Shown in pieces: positions 2,371 to 31,535 of a stretch of DNA of 64,000 nucleotides. Both the position numbers and the translations under genes were made by a program. The stretch is from Deltaproteobacteria bacterium. GTDB lineage: Bacteria > Desulfobacterota > Desulfobacteria > Desulfobacterales > Desulfosarcinaceae. The notes beneath the pieces were generated by a model. That model did not search any database. It saw only the letters and a program-made list of their open reading frames with translations, and was not told the DNA's origin. Location of the stretch: positions 112,005 to 176,004 of the forward strand of contig JAKALP010000002.1 in the NCBI GenBank assembly GCA_021824175.1. Reading direction: 5' to 3'. Numbering within the stretch: position 1 is the stretch's first letter; every line of letters begins with the position of its first letter.

Positions 2371-2397
2371 TAAAGTTGTTCGATGAAATGCCGATAA
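2371..2397 (+). promoter_or_regulatory. sigma-28 (FliA) promoter
   Basis: TAAAGTTG (2371-2378), an 11-nt spacer, then GCCGATAA (2390-2397). This matches the known enterobacterial FliA consensus TAAAGTTT-N11-GCCGATAA at 15 of 16 positions with the exact spacing. Transcription would start at about 2402-2406, right at the foot of the first hairpin. No flagellar gene follows; the next CDS starts 200 nt further on. Confidence 0.75.
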
Positions 2398-2401
2398 TCA
2401 G

Positions 2402-2491
2402 TCAGAGGCTTCGCGGGGGAGCCTCTGGGATATATGCAAATATATCTTCCTTTAGCCGGCGGGGCGGCTGCGGCAGCCGCCCCGTTCCTTT
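2402..2491 (+). ncRNA. candidate FliA-dependent small RNA with three hairpins
   Basis: The sequence starting at the predicted FliA start site folds by eye into three consecutive perfect stems. Stem 1 has 8 bp (2403-2410 with 2420-2427) and a 9-nt G-rich loop. Stem 2 has 7 bp (2429-2435 with 2440-2446) closed by a GCAA tetraloop. Stem 3 has 10 bp (2461-2470 with 2474-2483), a CGG loop, and is followed by TTCCTTTT. The gaps are short: one base between stems 1 and 2 and about 14 between stems 2 and 3. A dedicated promoter, no open reading frame and a terminator-like end suggest a free RNA of about 90 nt. It could instead be the structured 5' leader of the peptidase gene at 2611. I do not recognise it as a known RNA family. 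Confidence 0.6.
2461..2491 (+). terminator. intrinsic terminator of the candidate small RNA
   Basis: A 10-bp perfect GC-rich stem with a three-base loop followed by GTTCCTTTT. The U tract is interrupted by two C residues, so read-through into the peptidase gene is possible. Confidence 0.6.
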
Positions 2492-2610
2492 TAAAAAGCA
2501 AGTCAGGGGTTCTGAAATTCCAATTGCACCGGCTGTTTATTTCAAGCGCCTCCCTCATTTCATCCCCCTACGTTTTCTAAAAATCCAATTCATCCCCGCG
2601 GAAGGTGCCT

Positions 2611-4305
2611 ATGCATTCCAATCCCCGTATTGCCAAATTATTCAAAAGAGTTAGCCTCCAAGCGGTCGTCAGAATGCTGTTGGTTCTACTCCTGCCGGCC
2701 TTCCTGCTGGTTTCCAATGGGTGGAGTGCGCCGGTGGATCTGGCCACGGCCCATCTGGTGGCTCAAAACACCGTGCGCCACCACCTGGCCCTTCATGGTC
2801 ACTGGAACGGCAGCACCGCTCCCACGGTAGGTCCGGGGGAGGAGGTTCAGTATCAAGGCTGCACCGTGGCCTATGATTTCAACGTCAGCCCCAGCGGCCA
2901 TGTGCTGGTGTCGGTGGATGACACCCTGAGCCCGGTGCCGCTGTATTCCACCCGTTCAGCCTTTGTTGCGGCGCGGGCCGGCCAGCCCCAATCCCTCGAG
3001 TCATGGATTGTGCCGGAGCAGCATGCCAAAGTGGCGGGATTGGAGCAGGTCCGCACACGCGCGGCCGGGTTTCAAACCAGCGCATCGTTCTATCCGGCGC
3101 GCATCGCCCGGGCGTGGGAGATATATTTGCAACCCGCGCAGGATGGTTCCAGTCAGGCAAGCTTGACTGCCAGCGTCACGCAGCGCTCGGCGGTCAGCCG
3201 TTCAGCCACCGTGGCGCCTTTGCTGACCACCCTATGGGGGCAATCGTCGCCTTATTATTTGATGACCCCATCGGTCAACGGCGCCCATGGCTGCACCCAC
3301 ACCCTGACCGGCTGCGTGGCCACGGCCTGGGCCCAGGTGCTCAACTACTGGCAGTGGCCGGCCCAAGGCCAGGGCAGTGTGAGTTATTCTTGGAACGGCC
3401 GGACCCTATCAATGGATTTCAGCCAGAGCGTGTATGATTGGAGCCACATGGGCGACACCCCCAGCGGCACTGACACGGTTGAAAACCAGGCCATTTCCAA
3501 ACTGCTCTACGATGTGGCCCTGGCGGCCCAAACCGTTTTCGGATGCACCGAATCGACCAGTCAAATGTGGGCCGACGATGTGCTGGATGTCTATTTCGGG
3601 TACAAAGCCATGACCTTCCATGACCGTCTGGACTACTCCGATCCCGACGCCTGGTTTGCCATGTTTCAGACCGAGCTGGATGCCACGCCGCCACGGCCGG
3701 TGATCTTTTCAATTTTTTCCGACACCATCGGCCATGAAGTGGTGGTGGATGGCTATCAGACCGACACCACCAACATGGTGCACATCAATTTCGGCTGGCC
3801 GACTTTGGCCGATGCATATGAAGGCTATTTCGACATCAGCGACCCGAGCACTTTTTATCTTCAGTACTACTGGGACGTGAATGAGCAGTATTTGGTCACC
3901 GGCATCCAGCCCAACGAGAACGCGACCCTGCCCACGGTGAATGCCGGAGCCGATCAAAGTGTTGATGAAGGCGCCGCCGTGACCCTCAGCGGCAGTGCCG
4001 TCCACGACGGTTACACCATCGAGACCTTGCAGTGGCGCAAGGTGGATGATCCTGAATTCCAGATCACCGGCTCGAACCAGTCCACGGCCACCTTCACGGC
4101 CCCCAGCGTGAGCGCTGACACGACCATGGTCTTCCGCTTTAAAGCCATTGATAACAGCGGCAACGTGGGCTTTGATGATTGCACCGTCACGGTGCGCAAC
4201 ACCGATGCGCCCCCGGCCACGCCGCCGGCGACTCCAACGCCAGTGCCTTTCGCCGGTGATGGGGGTGGTGGTGGCGGCGGGTGTTTCATCGCAACCCTGA
4301 GGTAA
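2611..4305 (+). CDS. secreted C10 (streptopain-like) cysteine peptidase with PKD domain
   Basis: A 564-residue exported protease. After an N-terminal hydrophobic signal sequence comes a Spi-like propeptide region, then the C10 catalytic core: the nucleophile motif TGCVATAWAQ (Cys235) and the catalytic histidine in GHEVVVDGY (His375), the two signatures of the streptopain family. Residues from about 445 (GADQSVDEGAAVTLSG) form a PKD/Ig-like domain, followed by a Pro/Thr linker and a glycine run. The C terminus reads CFIATLR and stops; related proteins usually continue CFIATAAYGS into a hydrophobic anchor, so the tail looks truncated. Start: ATG 2611 with GGAAGG five bases upstream, rather than GTG 2605. 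The FliA promoter and hairpins lie upstream. Confidence 0.85.
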   Translation: MHSNPRIAKLFKRVSLQAVVRMLLVLLLPAFLLVSNGWSAPVDLATAHLVAQNTVRHHLALHGHWNGSTAPTVGPGEEVQYQGCTVAYDFNVSPSGHVLVSVDDTLSPVPLYSTRSAFVAARAGQPQSLESWIVPEQHAKVAGLEQVRTRAAGFQTSASFYPARIARAWEIYLQPAQDGSSQASLTASVTQRSAVSRSATVAPLLTTLWGQSSPYYLMTPSVNGAHGCTHTLTGCVATAWAQVLNYWQWPAQGQGSVSYSWNGRTLSMDFSQSVYDWSHMGDTPSGTDTVENQAISKLLYDVALAAQTVFGCTESTSQMWADDVLDVYFGYKAMTFHDRLDYSDPDAWFAMFQTELDATPPRPVIFSIFSDTIGHEVVVDGYQTDTTNMVHINFGWPTLADAYEGYFDISDPSTFYLQYYWDVNEQYLVTGIQPNENATLPTVNAGADQSVDEGAAVTLSGSAVHDGYTIETLQWRKVDDPEFQITGSNQSTATFTAPSVSADTTMVFRFKAIDNSGNVGFDDCTVTVRNTDAPPATPPATPTPVPFAGDGGGGGGGCFIATLR

Positions 4306-29007: not shown

Positions 29008-30090
29008 TCATGCCTCGGTAAAATCCGTGGGTGGTGCTTTGAGCAGCGGCCGGAAGCGGCCCTTGTCATTGGCTTTCATGTAGGCATCGTCGGCGCTGAT
29101 GCGGCCTTTATTGAACAGCTCCATAATGGCGTCATCGAGCAATTGCATACCGTACTTCTTTCCGGTTTGCACCATGGAAGGAATTTGATGGGATTTGGCT
29201 TCCCGGATCAGGTTGCGCACGGCCGGTGTGGCGATCAAGATCTCCAGGGCCGGTACGCGTCCCTTTTTATCAATGCGTTTGAACAAGGTCTGGGAGATGA
29301 TGGCCCGGATGCCGTCGGCCAGGGTGGAGCGGATCTGGCCTTGTTCTTCGGCCGGAAATACTTCCACGATGCGGTCCACGGTTTTGGCCGCGCTGGTGGT
29401 GTGCAGGGTAGTAAAAACCAAGTGACCGGTGGAGGCGGCCTCGATAGCCAGGCTCATGGTGGTCAAATCGCGCATTTCGCCCACCAGAATAATATCCGGA
29501 TCTTCGCGCAACGCGCCGCGCAGCGCGGATGCGAACGATTTGGTGTGCAAGCCCACCTCGCGCTGGTTGACCAGGCAGCCTTTGCTCTTATGCACAAATT
29601 CGATGGGGTCTTCGATGGTGATGATGTGATCGGCCCGCAGCCGGTTGGCTTCGTCGATGATGGCGGCCAGGGTGGTGGATTTGCCGCTGCCCGTGGGGCC
29701 TGTGACGATAACCAAACCGCGGGGCAATCCGGCCAGTTTGGCGATCACCGACGGCAACCCCAACTGTTCGCAGCTCATGATGGTACTGGGAATTTCTCGG
29801 AAGACCGCGCCCACGCCGTTTTTCTGAACGAAGAAGTTGGCCCGGTAACGGGCCAGGCCGGGGATCTCATAACCGAAATCCACGTCACCGCTCTCTTCAA
29901 AGGTCTTGATCTTGTCTTCGGCCGCGATTTCATAGAGCATGGCCCGCAGCTCGTCGTTATCCAGGACCTTGTACTTGACGCGTTCGATGTCGCCATGAAC
30001 ACGCAAGGCTGGCGGCTGGCCGGCCATGAGATGCAAGTCCGATGCGTTCTGTTCGTGCATCAATTTGAAAAAGGCGTCGATTTTTGCCAT
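29008..30090 (-). CDS. pilT: type IV pilus retraction ATPase PilT
   Basis: A 360-residue ATPase. Motifs: SDLHLMAGQPPALRVHGDIE near the N terminus, Walker A GPTGSGKSTT, Asp box ITIEDPIEFVH, Walker B ILVGEMRDLTTMSLAIEAA, His box TGHLVFTTLHTTSAAKTVDR and the retraction motif region (RSTLADGIRAIISQTL). It powers pilus retraction at the inner membrane. The start at ATG 30090 gives MAKIDAFFKLM, the usual PilT beginning. Pilus assembly genes are not in the window. Confidence 0.94.
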   Translation of the reverse strand: MAKIDAFFKLMHEQNASDLHLMAGQPPALRVHGDIERVKYKVLDNDELRAMLYEIAAEDKIKTFEESGDVDFGYEIPGLARYRANFFVQKNGVGAVFREIPSTIMSCEQLGLPSVIAKLAGLPRGLVIVTGPTGSGKSTTLAAIIDEANRLRADHIITIEDPIEFVHKSKGCLVNQREVGLHTKSFASALRGALREDPDIILVGEMRDLTTMSLAIEAASTGHLVFTTLHTTSAAKTVDRIVEVFPAEEQGQIRSTLADGIRAIISQTLFKRIDKKGRVPALEILIATPAVRNLIREAKSHQIPSMVQTGKKYGMQLLDDAIMELFNKGRISADDAYMKANDKGRFRPLLKAPPTDFTEA

Positions 30091-30252: not shown

Positions 30253-30336
30253 ATTCTTCTGATCAGGATGAAATATCACCTTGTTTGCCCCAGAGTGCTC
30301 AGCCACGTCATATTATCGGCCGCGCGCCGGTAAAGT

Positions 30337-30852
30337 TTAGCTCAGTGTGCTGGGTGGCTGTTTGAGCACCGCTACTTTTTCGTCCGAGGCATCCAAGGCA
30401 TCCATGCTTTCTTTTCCGATTTCCAGCAGCTTGCCGTGGGCCTCGATCACCGAGCGGATCTGCAGCTCGATTTGCATGCGCTGGCGTTTGAGTTCGGCAA
30501 TATCCTCGTGGAGTTGGGACAGGCGGTTGTGGGCGCGGTTGAGAATCTTTTCGGCTTTGACTTCGGCATCGGCCATGATGATTTCCGCCGATTTGCGCGC
30601 GTTATCCTTCATCTGCTCCATCACCTTCTGGGAATTGAGCATGGCACGCTTGAAGGTCTCTTCGCGCTCCTTGTACCCCTGGGTCTCCATTTTGAGCCGC
30701 CGCAACTCCTCCTTTAAGGTCTTGTTTTCAGCATGCAATGAAGCCAAAGATTCCGAGATTTGCTCCAGAAAACGATCCACCTCACGAACATCGAACCCCC
30801 GGAATCGAACCCGGAATTTTTGCTGCTGAACATCCTGGGGTGTCAGGCTCAT
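30337..30852 (-). CDS. DivIVA domain protein
   Basis: 171 residues. The N terminus MSLTPQDVQQQKFRVRFRGF followed by DVREVDRFLEQI is the DivIVA membrane-curvature-binding domain; residues 35-145 are a long coiled coil rich in Glu, Lys and Gln. Such proteins mark cell poles or septa and recruit partners. The gene is next to yggT, a common arrangement in this group of bacteria. The stop lies 246 nt before pilT, separated by a repeat, so polar pilus placement is only a speculation. Confidence 0.9.
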   Translation of the reverse strand: MSLTPQDVQQQKFRVRFRGFDVREVDRFLEQISESLASLHAENKTLKEELRRLKMETQGYKEREETFKRAMLNSQKVMEQMKDNARKSAEIIMADAEVKAEKILNRAHNRLSQLHEDIAELKRQRMQIELQIRSVIEAHGKLLEIGKESMDALDASDEKVAVLKQPPSTLS

Positions 30853-31458: not shown

Positions 31459-31535
31459 AGGCCAGTAGCTCTAATGGCTAGAGCGCCGGACTCCAAATCC
31501 GGGTGTTGGGGGTTCGAGTCCCTCCTGGCCTGCCA
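31459..31535 (+). tRNA. tRNA-Trp (CCA)
   Basis: A complete cloverleaf: acceptor AGGCCAG paired with CTGGCCT, D stem GCTC/GAGC, anticodon stem CCGGA/TCCGG with loop CTCCAAA (anticodon CCA at 31493-31495, reading UGG), T arm GGGGG-TTCGAGT-CCCTC, discriminator G and an encoded CCA end. Confidence 0.97.

Follow-up and report, generated by a model that had tools for sequence, protein, structure and literature searches.

FliA (sigma-28)-dependent small RNAs have already been described in E. coli (PMC10578931) and in Campylobacter (PMC4626219, PMC11187230). The closest described systems are CjNC1 and CjNC4 of Campylobacter (CJnc10, CJnc170/FlmR), described as FliA-dependent RNAs with a predicted ability to base-pair over ribosome-binding sites; in an E. 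coli assay they partially repressed, independently of Hfq, reporters with sigma-54 flagellar leaders (PMC4626219). Their deletion or overexpression is reported there to have had no motility phenotype (PMC4626219), while overexpression of CJnc170 is described elsewhere as lowering motility (PMC11187230). In E. coli, UhpU, MotR, FliX and FlgO are described as small RNAs that depend on sigma-28 and act on the flagellar network (PMC10578931).

The RNA analyzed here resembles CjNC1/CjNC4, as those sources portray them, in its apparent stand-alone position, its FliA-type promoter, its predicted 3' terminator and a candidate segment for pairing with ribosome-binding sites (PMC4626219, PMC11187230). 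In contrast, the Campylobacter RNAs are ∼44–47 nt long, belong to another phylum, and are described with only a 3' stem-loop and no 5' hairpin, and it is by lengths and architecture as described that we set the two apart; moreover, their predicted targets are mostly sigma-54 flagellar genes, whereas no such target was found here. The E. coli set is described as UTR-derived, and Hfq and RIL-seq appear as keywords of that paper (PMC10578931), whereas the present RNA lies between genes, in a family whose 30 genomes gave no Hfq match. Among the matches listed in a search of the open-access literature, with subscription papers mostly outside its scope, no RNA of this kind was found in these bacteria.

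A FliA-type promoter followed by a predicted compact RNA

The locus was analyzed within a 64-kb stretch of DNA (the window). Its promoter reads TAAAGTTG-N11-GCCGATAA at 2371–2397 on the forward strand, with TAAAGTTG at 2371–2378, an 11-nt spacer and GCCGATAA at 2390–2397. FliA boxes are scored against a 16-position consensus, and this box matches it at 15 positions with exact spacing, as the initial annotation had claimed. The pattern TAAAGTTN-N11-GCCGATAA, in which any base is allowed at the eighth position, has a single match in the window and none in 100 shuffles, and the full consensus with at most three mismatches gave two window sites versus 0.26 expected (at least two sites in 4 shuffles). 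FliA-like boxes (14/16) are likewise present in the same genome upstream of genes read as flagellin, flgM and cheX-like, names that were assigned by reading translations and, for flagellin, also by Pfam. A second FliA-like box in the window, TAAACTTT-N11-GCCGATAA (15/16; 30313–30339, reverse strand), is located just after a divIVA-like gene and ∼220 nt upstream of a pilT-like gene (start near 30090, reverse strand), both of which were named by sequence reading alone.

Downstream of the promoter, a candidate RNA of ∼90 nt extends from about 2401 to 2492 (forward strand) within an intergenic region. Its minimum free energy fold contains all three perfect stems (8, 7 and 10 bp) previously noted behind the promoter (z = −4.93), and none of 200 shuffles folded equally well. 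Hairpin 1 (2403–2427), at the inferred 5' end, is formed by an 8-bp stem (2403–2410/2420–2427) closing the G-rich loop UCGCGGGGG (2411–2419), and hairpin 2 (2429–2446) by a 7-bp stem (2429–2435/2440–2446) closing a GCAA loop. These are followed by the C/U element CUUCCUUUAGCC (2446–2457), an anti-Shine-Dalgarno-like candidate seed that is single-stranded in the fold except for its first base. The intrinsic terminator (2460–2492), supported by sequence, fold and covariation, consists of a CGGGGCGGCTG-CGG-CAGCCGCCCCG stem (2461–2470/2474–2483; 10 bp, or 11 with C2460–G2484) and the subsequent TTCCTTTT at 2485–2492.

The locus had also been described as free of reading frames. Two open reading frames of at least 60 aa do cross the RNA (2289–2654, forward; 2370–2558, reverse), but no conserved frame was seen in the aligned relatives, because the linker length shifts by single bases and the ATG within hairpin 2 is not kept, and a peptide encoded in the RNA was rejected on these grounds. 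A search of the window against Rfam 15 returned a tRNA at 31459 as the only match over gathering score, and none in the region 2300–2600 (best E = 2).

Conservation in the family and related RNAs in the order

A blastn search of 60 genomes, one of them its own, recovered the RNA from 11 of the remaining genomes at E < 1e-10. A covariance model of the RNA only (R1), built from 12 copies, matched 23 of the 30 family genomes at E ≤ 0.01, and a second model (R2) added a further genome, G021, whose copy (L062) proved to be a true family member. Hence 24/30 genomes, from Desulfatitalea, Desulfosarcina and their kin, carry the RNA, each with one strong copy. Cultured species among the carriers are Desulfosarcina widdelii, D. 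alkanivorans and Desulfatitalea alkaliphila. Additional weak matches in G003, G006 and G015, as well as matches in G001 and G027 (including L086), were taken as chance, those in G015, G001 and G027 having been inspected directly.

Since the promoter forms no part of R1 or R2, the box upstream of the copies constitutes independent evidence. A FliA box of at least 12/16 was found 5–10 nt before stem 1 in 22 of the 23 copies with upstream sequence, the copy of G019 being the sole exception, compared to 144 of 33,215 control windows (0.43%) from the same loci. An upstream FliA-type promoter kept in relatives, which is a feature of the sigma-28-dependent small RNA class, is consequently seen here as well.

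The stems are also maintained. In stem 1, 98.6% of the aligned cells are paired, with changes on both sides in 4/7 pairs, and in the terminator stem 97.1%, with changes on both sides in 5/10 pairs; the covariation score was reached by 0/500 shuffles, values that refer to 21 of the 24 copies (L041, L054 and L062 left out) and to an alignment fitted to the structure, which favours covariation. Hairpin 1 reads GAGGCU-UCGCGGGGG-AGCCUC in Desulfatitalea and GCGGCA-CAUCGGGGGAU-UGCCGC in Desulfosarcina, i.e. the stem has been exchanged across the two lineages and the loop CGGGGGA kept. The covariance check in relatives that the initial annotation had proposed came out in favour of the promoter, which is kept, and of stem 1 and the terminator, which show compensatory changes, but not of hairpin 2, which is variable and not clearly present in Desulfosarcina, where the region is mostly C/U-rich. 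At least four consecutive T come after the terminator stem in 14 of the 20 aligned copies, whereas six lack such a run.

A DNA pattern combining the box with hairpin 1, which is blind to distant copies because it was drawn from family copies, matched 19 records among 84,980 species genomes. Sixteen of them are labelled as Desulfatitalea, Desulfosarcina, Desulfosarcinaceae, or unplaced Desulfobacteraceae, Desulfobacterales or Deltaproteobacteria, and the three from unrelated organisms were taken as chance.

Outside the family, R2 gave 36 weak matches in 32 genomes, of which 25 matches were inspected. A box scoring 12/16 or more was present in five of these (L063, L066, L070, L072 and L077), and the other 20, with a best box of 11/16, were dropped as chance terminators. 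We further made use of a model of promoter plus RNA (R3), the training of which also took four matches from other families. With the box built into R3, boxes at its matches do not count as independent evidence, but the five boxes noted above were found with R2, which has no box. Across 389 genomes of the order, R3 matched 62 genomes outside the family at E ≤ 0.1. The inspected set comprised 33 loci, namely all 30 outside-family matches at E ≤ 0.001 and three weaker ones, with the 36 outside-family genomes having weaker matches only lying outside this set. Twenty-nine related RNAs were kept, from 22 genomes in seven other families, six genomes carrying two or three; L218–L221 were dropped, as the hairpin and terminator are missing. 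The boxes of the 29 RNAs score at least 12/16 in 26 cases and 11 in three. Most of these RNAs display a hairpin at the 5' end and a terminator, together with a C/U stretch that resembles the anti-Shine-Dalgarno end of 16S rRNA and has CCUU motifs comparable to CUUCCUUUAGCC. A class-wide search returned, among the matches listed, only members of the same order, all of them also matched by R3.

One hairpin form, hereafter type A, was chosen by eye and accounts for 15 hairpins in 13 genomes. Its stems are CAGUGUGC-NGGCGG-GCACACUG-like with pair-preserving changes, and it continues with AUAAUUCCUU(A/G)GG in 13/15 copies. Genomes of one family (f29) that also carry type A have a second FliA-boxed RNA type (L201, L202 and L203), in which the hairpin GCGUGUUU-CGGG-AGACACGC is followed by a CACCUUCUUUUACUAACUUCGGAA linker and a terminator. 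Among the dropped loci, L218 and L219 (f4) and L221 (f22) have FliA boxes of 14–16/16, each followed by a leader containing GCTTCTCGG; these similar leaders, which do not follow the hairpin-terminator layout, may represent either a flagellin-type leader that is conserved or a further small RNA.

Within the family, FliA was found over the cut-off in 27 of the 30 genomes, and 22 of these 27 carry the RNA. Both are missing over the cut-off in G013; G008 (64% complete) and G012 have the RNA and no FliA match over the cut-off, and G021 has the RNA and no flagellin match. No copy was found by R1, R2 or R3 in G001, G009 and G024, although fliA and flagellin are present in these genomes.

The C/U element and the G-rich loop

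The 3' end of 16S rRNA is resembled by CUUCCUUUAGCC and by its Desulfosarcina equivalent CUCCUUCUGCC. Single-stranded and near-invariant in Desulfatitalea-type copies, CUUCCUUUAGCC had been missed in the earlier reading of the locus and appears to be the better candidate seed. Fourteen hand-chosen linkers, four of them from one family, jointly bind the Shine-Dalgarno consensus beyond mononucleotide shuffles (Fisher p 3e-7). Taken singly, six of the 14 fall below p 0.05 and six above p 0.1, the window's own linker shows no significant enrichment (p 0.157), and two RNAs have no C/U anti-Shine-Dalgarno motif. Hfq (TIGR02383, E ≤ 0.001) was detected in 0/30 family genomes and in 5/14 control genomes, a result under which a divergent Sm-like protein may still be present. 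From the C/U motif together with the lack of detectable Hfq, we infer pairing over ribosome-binding sites that would be independent of Hfq; whether the RNA acts by such anti-Shine-Dalgarno pairing is, in our judgement, evenly balanced.

Target searches gave no convincing candidate. Sites complementary to 12 nt were not commoner in the RNA's own genome than those of a reversed control (25 versus 52), and a Shine-Dalgarno-plus-start pattern searched in two genera gave 56 matches, 42 of which were translated, with no recurrent flagellar gene. Among 33 ortholog groups from the flagellar regions of seven genomes, the highest-ranking one reached a mean z of only −1.12, compared to a mean z of −0.38 (sd 0.42) over all 33. 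Since these searches failed, any target and a role in feedback are put forward conditionally below. Two weak leads were noted: in the RNA's own genome, TCTAAAGGAAG precedes the start of a gene read as CorA-like, and three Desulfatitalea genomes gave z values of −3.2, −2.4 and −3.0 at flhG/minD-like starts, compared to −0.75 to +1.29 in the four remaining genomes.

Alternatively, the working part of a FliA-driven RNA may be hairpin 1, with an NGGNGG-like loop that is bound by, or sequesters, an RNA-binding protein and a C/U stretch that is a mere linker. The loop is indeed the most constant element, CGGGGGA being invariant in 20/20 aligned family copies and NGGCGG present in 14/15 type-A copies while the stem varies, and the GGA at its edge would suit a CsrA-sequestering role, as suggested in the initial annotation. 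CsrA-sequestering RNAs are known from the CsrB/McaS type, to which the family copies are similar in having a GGA at a hairpin loop. However, that class requires several conserved loop GGA motifs, and the family alignment holds a single conserved one, at the loop edge, with none in the 15 type-A loops; one site per RNA is also few for a sponge. In addition, a crude start-motif scan of the flagellar regions fetched from four genomes found no csrA. Sequestration of CsrA is accordingly disfavoured, and we did not assign the RNA to that class. As the C/U stretch is conserved too, and several outside-family RNAs have no G-rich loop, we regard a function centred on hairpin 1, whatever the protein, as rather doubtful, and retain the C/U element as the candidate seed.

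Genomic context and proposed role

The genes next to the RNA vary over the 20 loci compared and differ between the Desulfatitalea and Desulfosarcina lineages (identities from Pfam on representatives, for part of the neighbours). A Memo-family gene lies upstream in 8/20 loci and a C10 peptidase downstream in 7/20, the window included, mainly in the Desulfatitalea lineage, while Desulfosarcina neighbours comprise an HDOD protein (4 loci) and an ABC solute-binding-like protein (3 loci). In the window, a Peptidase C10 with PKD domain (2605–4305, forward) is directly downstream, followed by MoeA, MoaA-type, MobA-type and GGDEF genes; these five downstream genes agree with the earlier remark that no flagellar gene is near, and none was found among the neighbours examined in relatives. 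Given that neighbours differ between lineages, and that the RNA has a box before it and ends in a terminator, it appears to be stand-alone.

The position of the peptidase, whose start is ∼110 nt past the terminator and a relative of which adjoins the RNA in those seven loci, would be compatible with a 5' leader of this gene made of a FliA promoter and an attenuator-like terminator, as would the lack of a good T run in six of the 20 aligned copies. Other loci, e.g. in Desulfosarcina, have different or opposite-facing downstream genes, however, and compensatory changes maintain the terminator stem, which makes a leader quite improbable. Similarly improbable is a conserved non-RNA element, or a promoter-terminator pair devoid of its own function: GGGGCGG-type hairpins do recur in these genomes, but stem-restoring changes around an invariant loop, and the near-constant spacing of the box across several genera, indicate selection on an RNA.

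Taken together, these results support in good part the proposal of a motility-linked small RNA with a FliA promoter, as relatives keep the promoter together with stem 1 and the terminator, and similar boxes precede genes read as flagellar. On this sequence evidence, the locus very probably encodes a FliA-driven small RNA. We lean slightly towards a fuller model in which a FliA-dependent, Hfq-independent, stand-alone small RNA would block ribosome-binding sites as feedback within the flagellar cascade, in the manner of CjNC1/CjNC4. Transcription, FliA dependence, base pairing and feedback are the predicted steps of this model. RNA polymerase carrying FliA would start the ∼90-nt RNA when the late flagellar genes are on, and the intrinsic terminator would end it. 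The 5' hairpin with its exposed CGGGGGA loop may cap and stabilise the RNA, or may instead be bound by a protein or engaged in a kissing interaction, and the single-stranded CUUCCUUUAGCC would pair with the Shine-Dalgarno regions of chosen mRNAs, such that translation would be blocked without Hfq and the finished flagellar cascade would feed back.

A broader and more tentative possibility is an order-wide superfamily of FliA-driven, Hfq-independent small RNAs, many with an NGGNGG-like 5' loop read by an RNA-binding protein, with an anti-Shine-Dalgarno arm and a function in flagellar feedback, which would have arisen apart from those of Campylobacter and enterobacteria.

Overall, the conserved promoter, stems and terminator suggest an apparently undescribed family of FliA-linked small RNAs and, probably, a real regulator of swimming cells. 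The covariance-model family is now available to be sought in RNA-seq of cultured Desulfosarcina. The presence of a conserved structured RNA of this kind in sulfate reducers in which Hfq is not detectable would point to a wider occurrence of late-flagellar RNA feedback.
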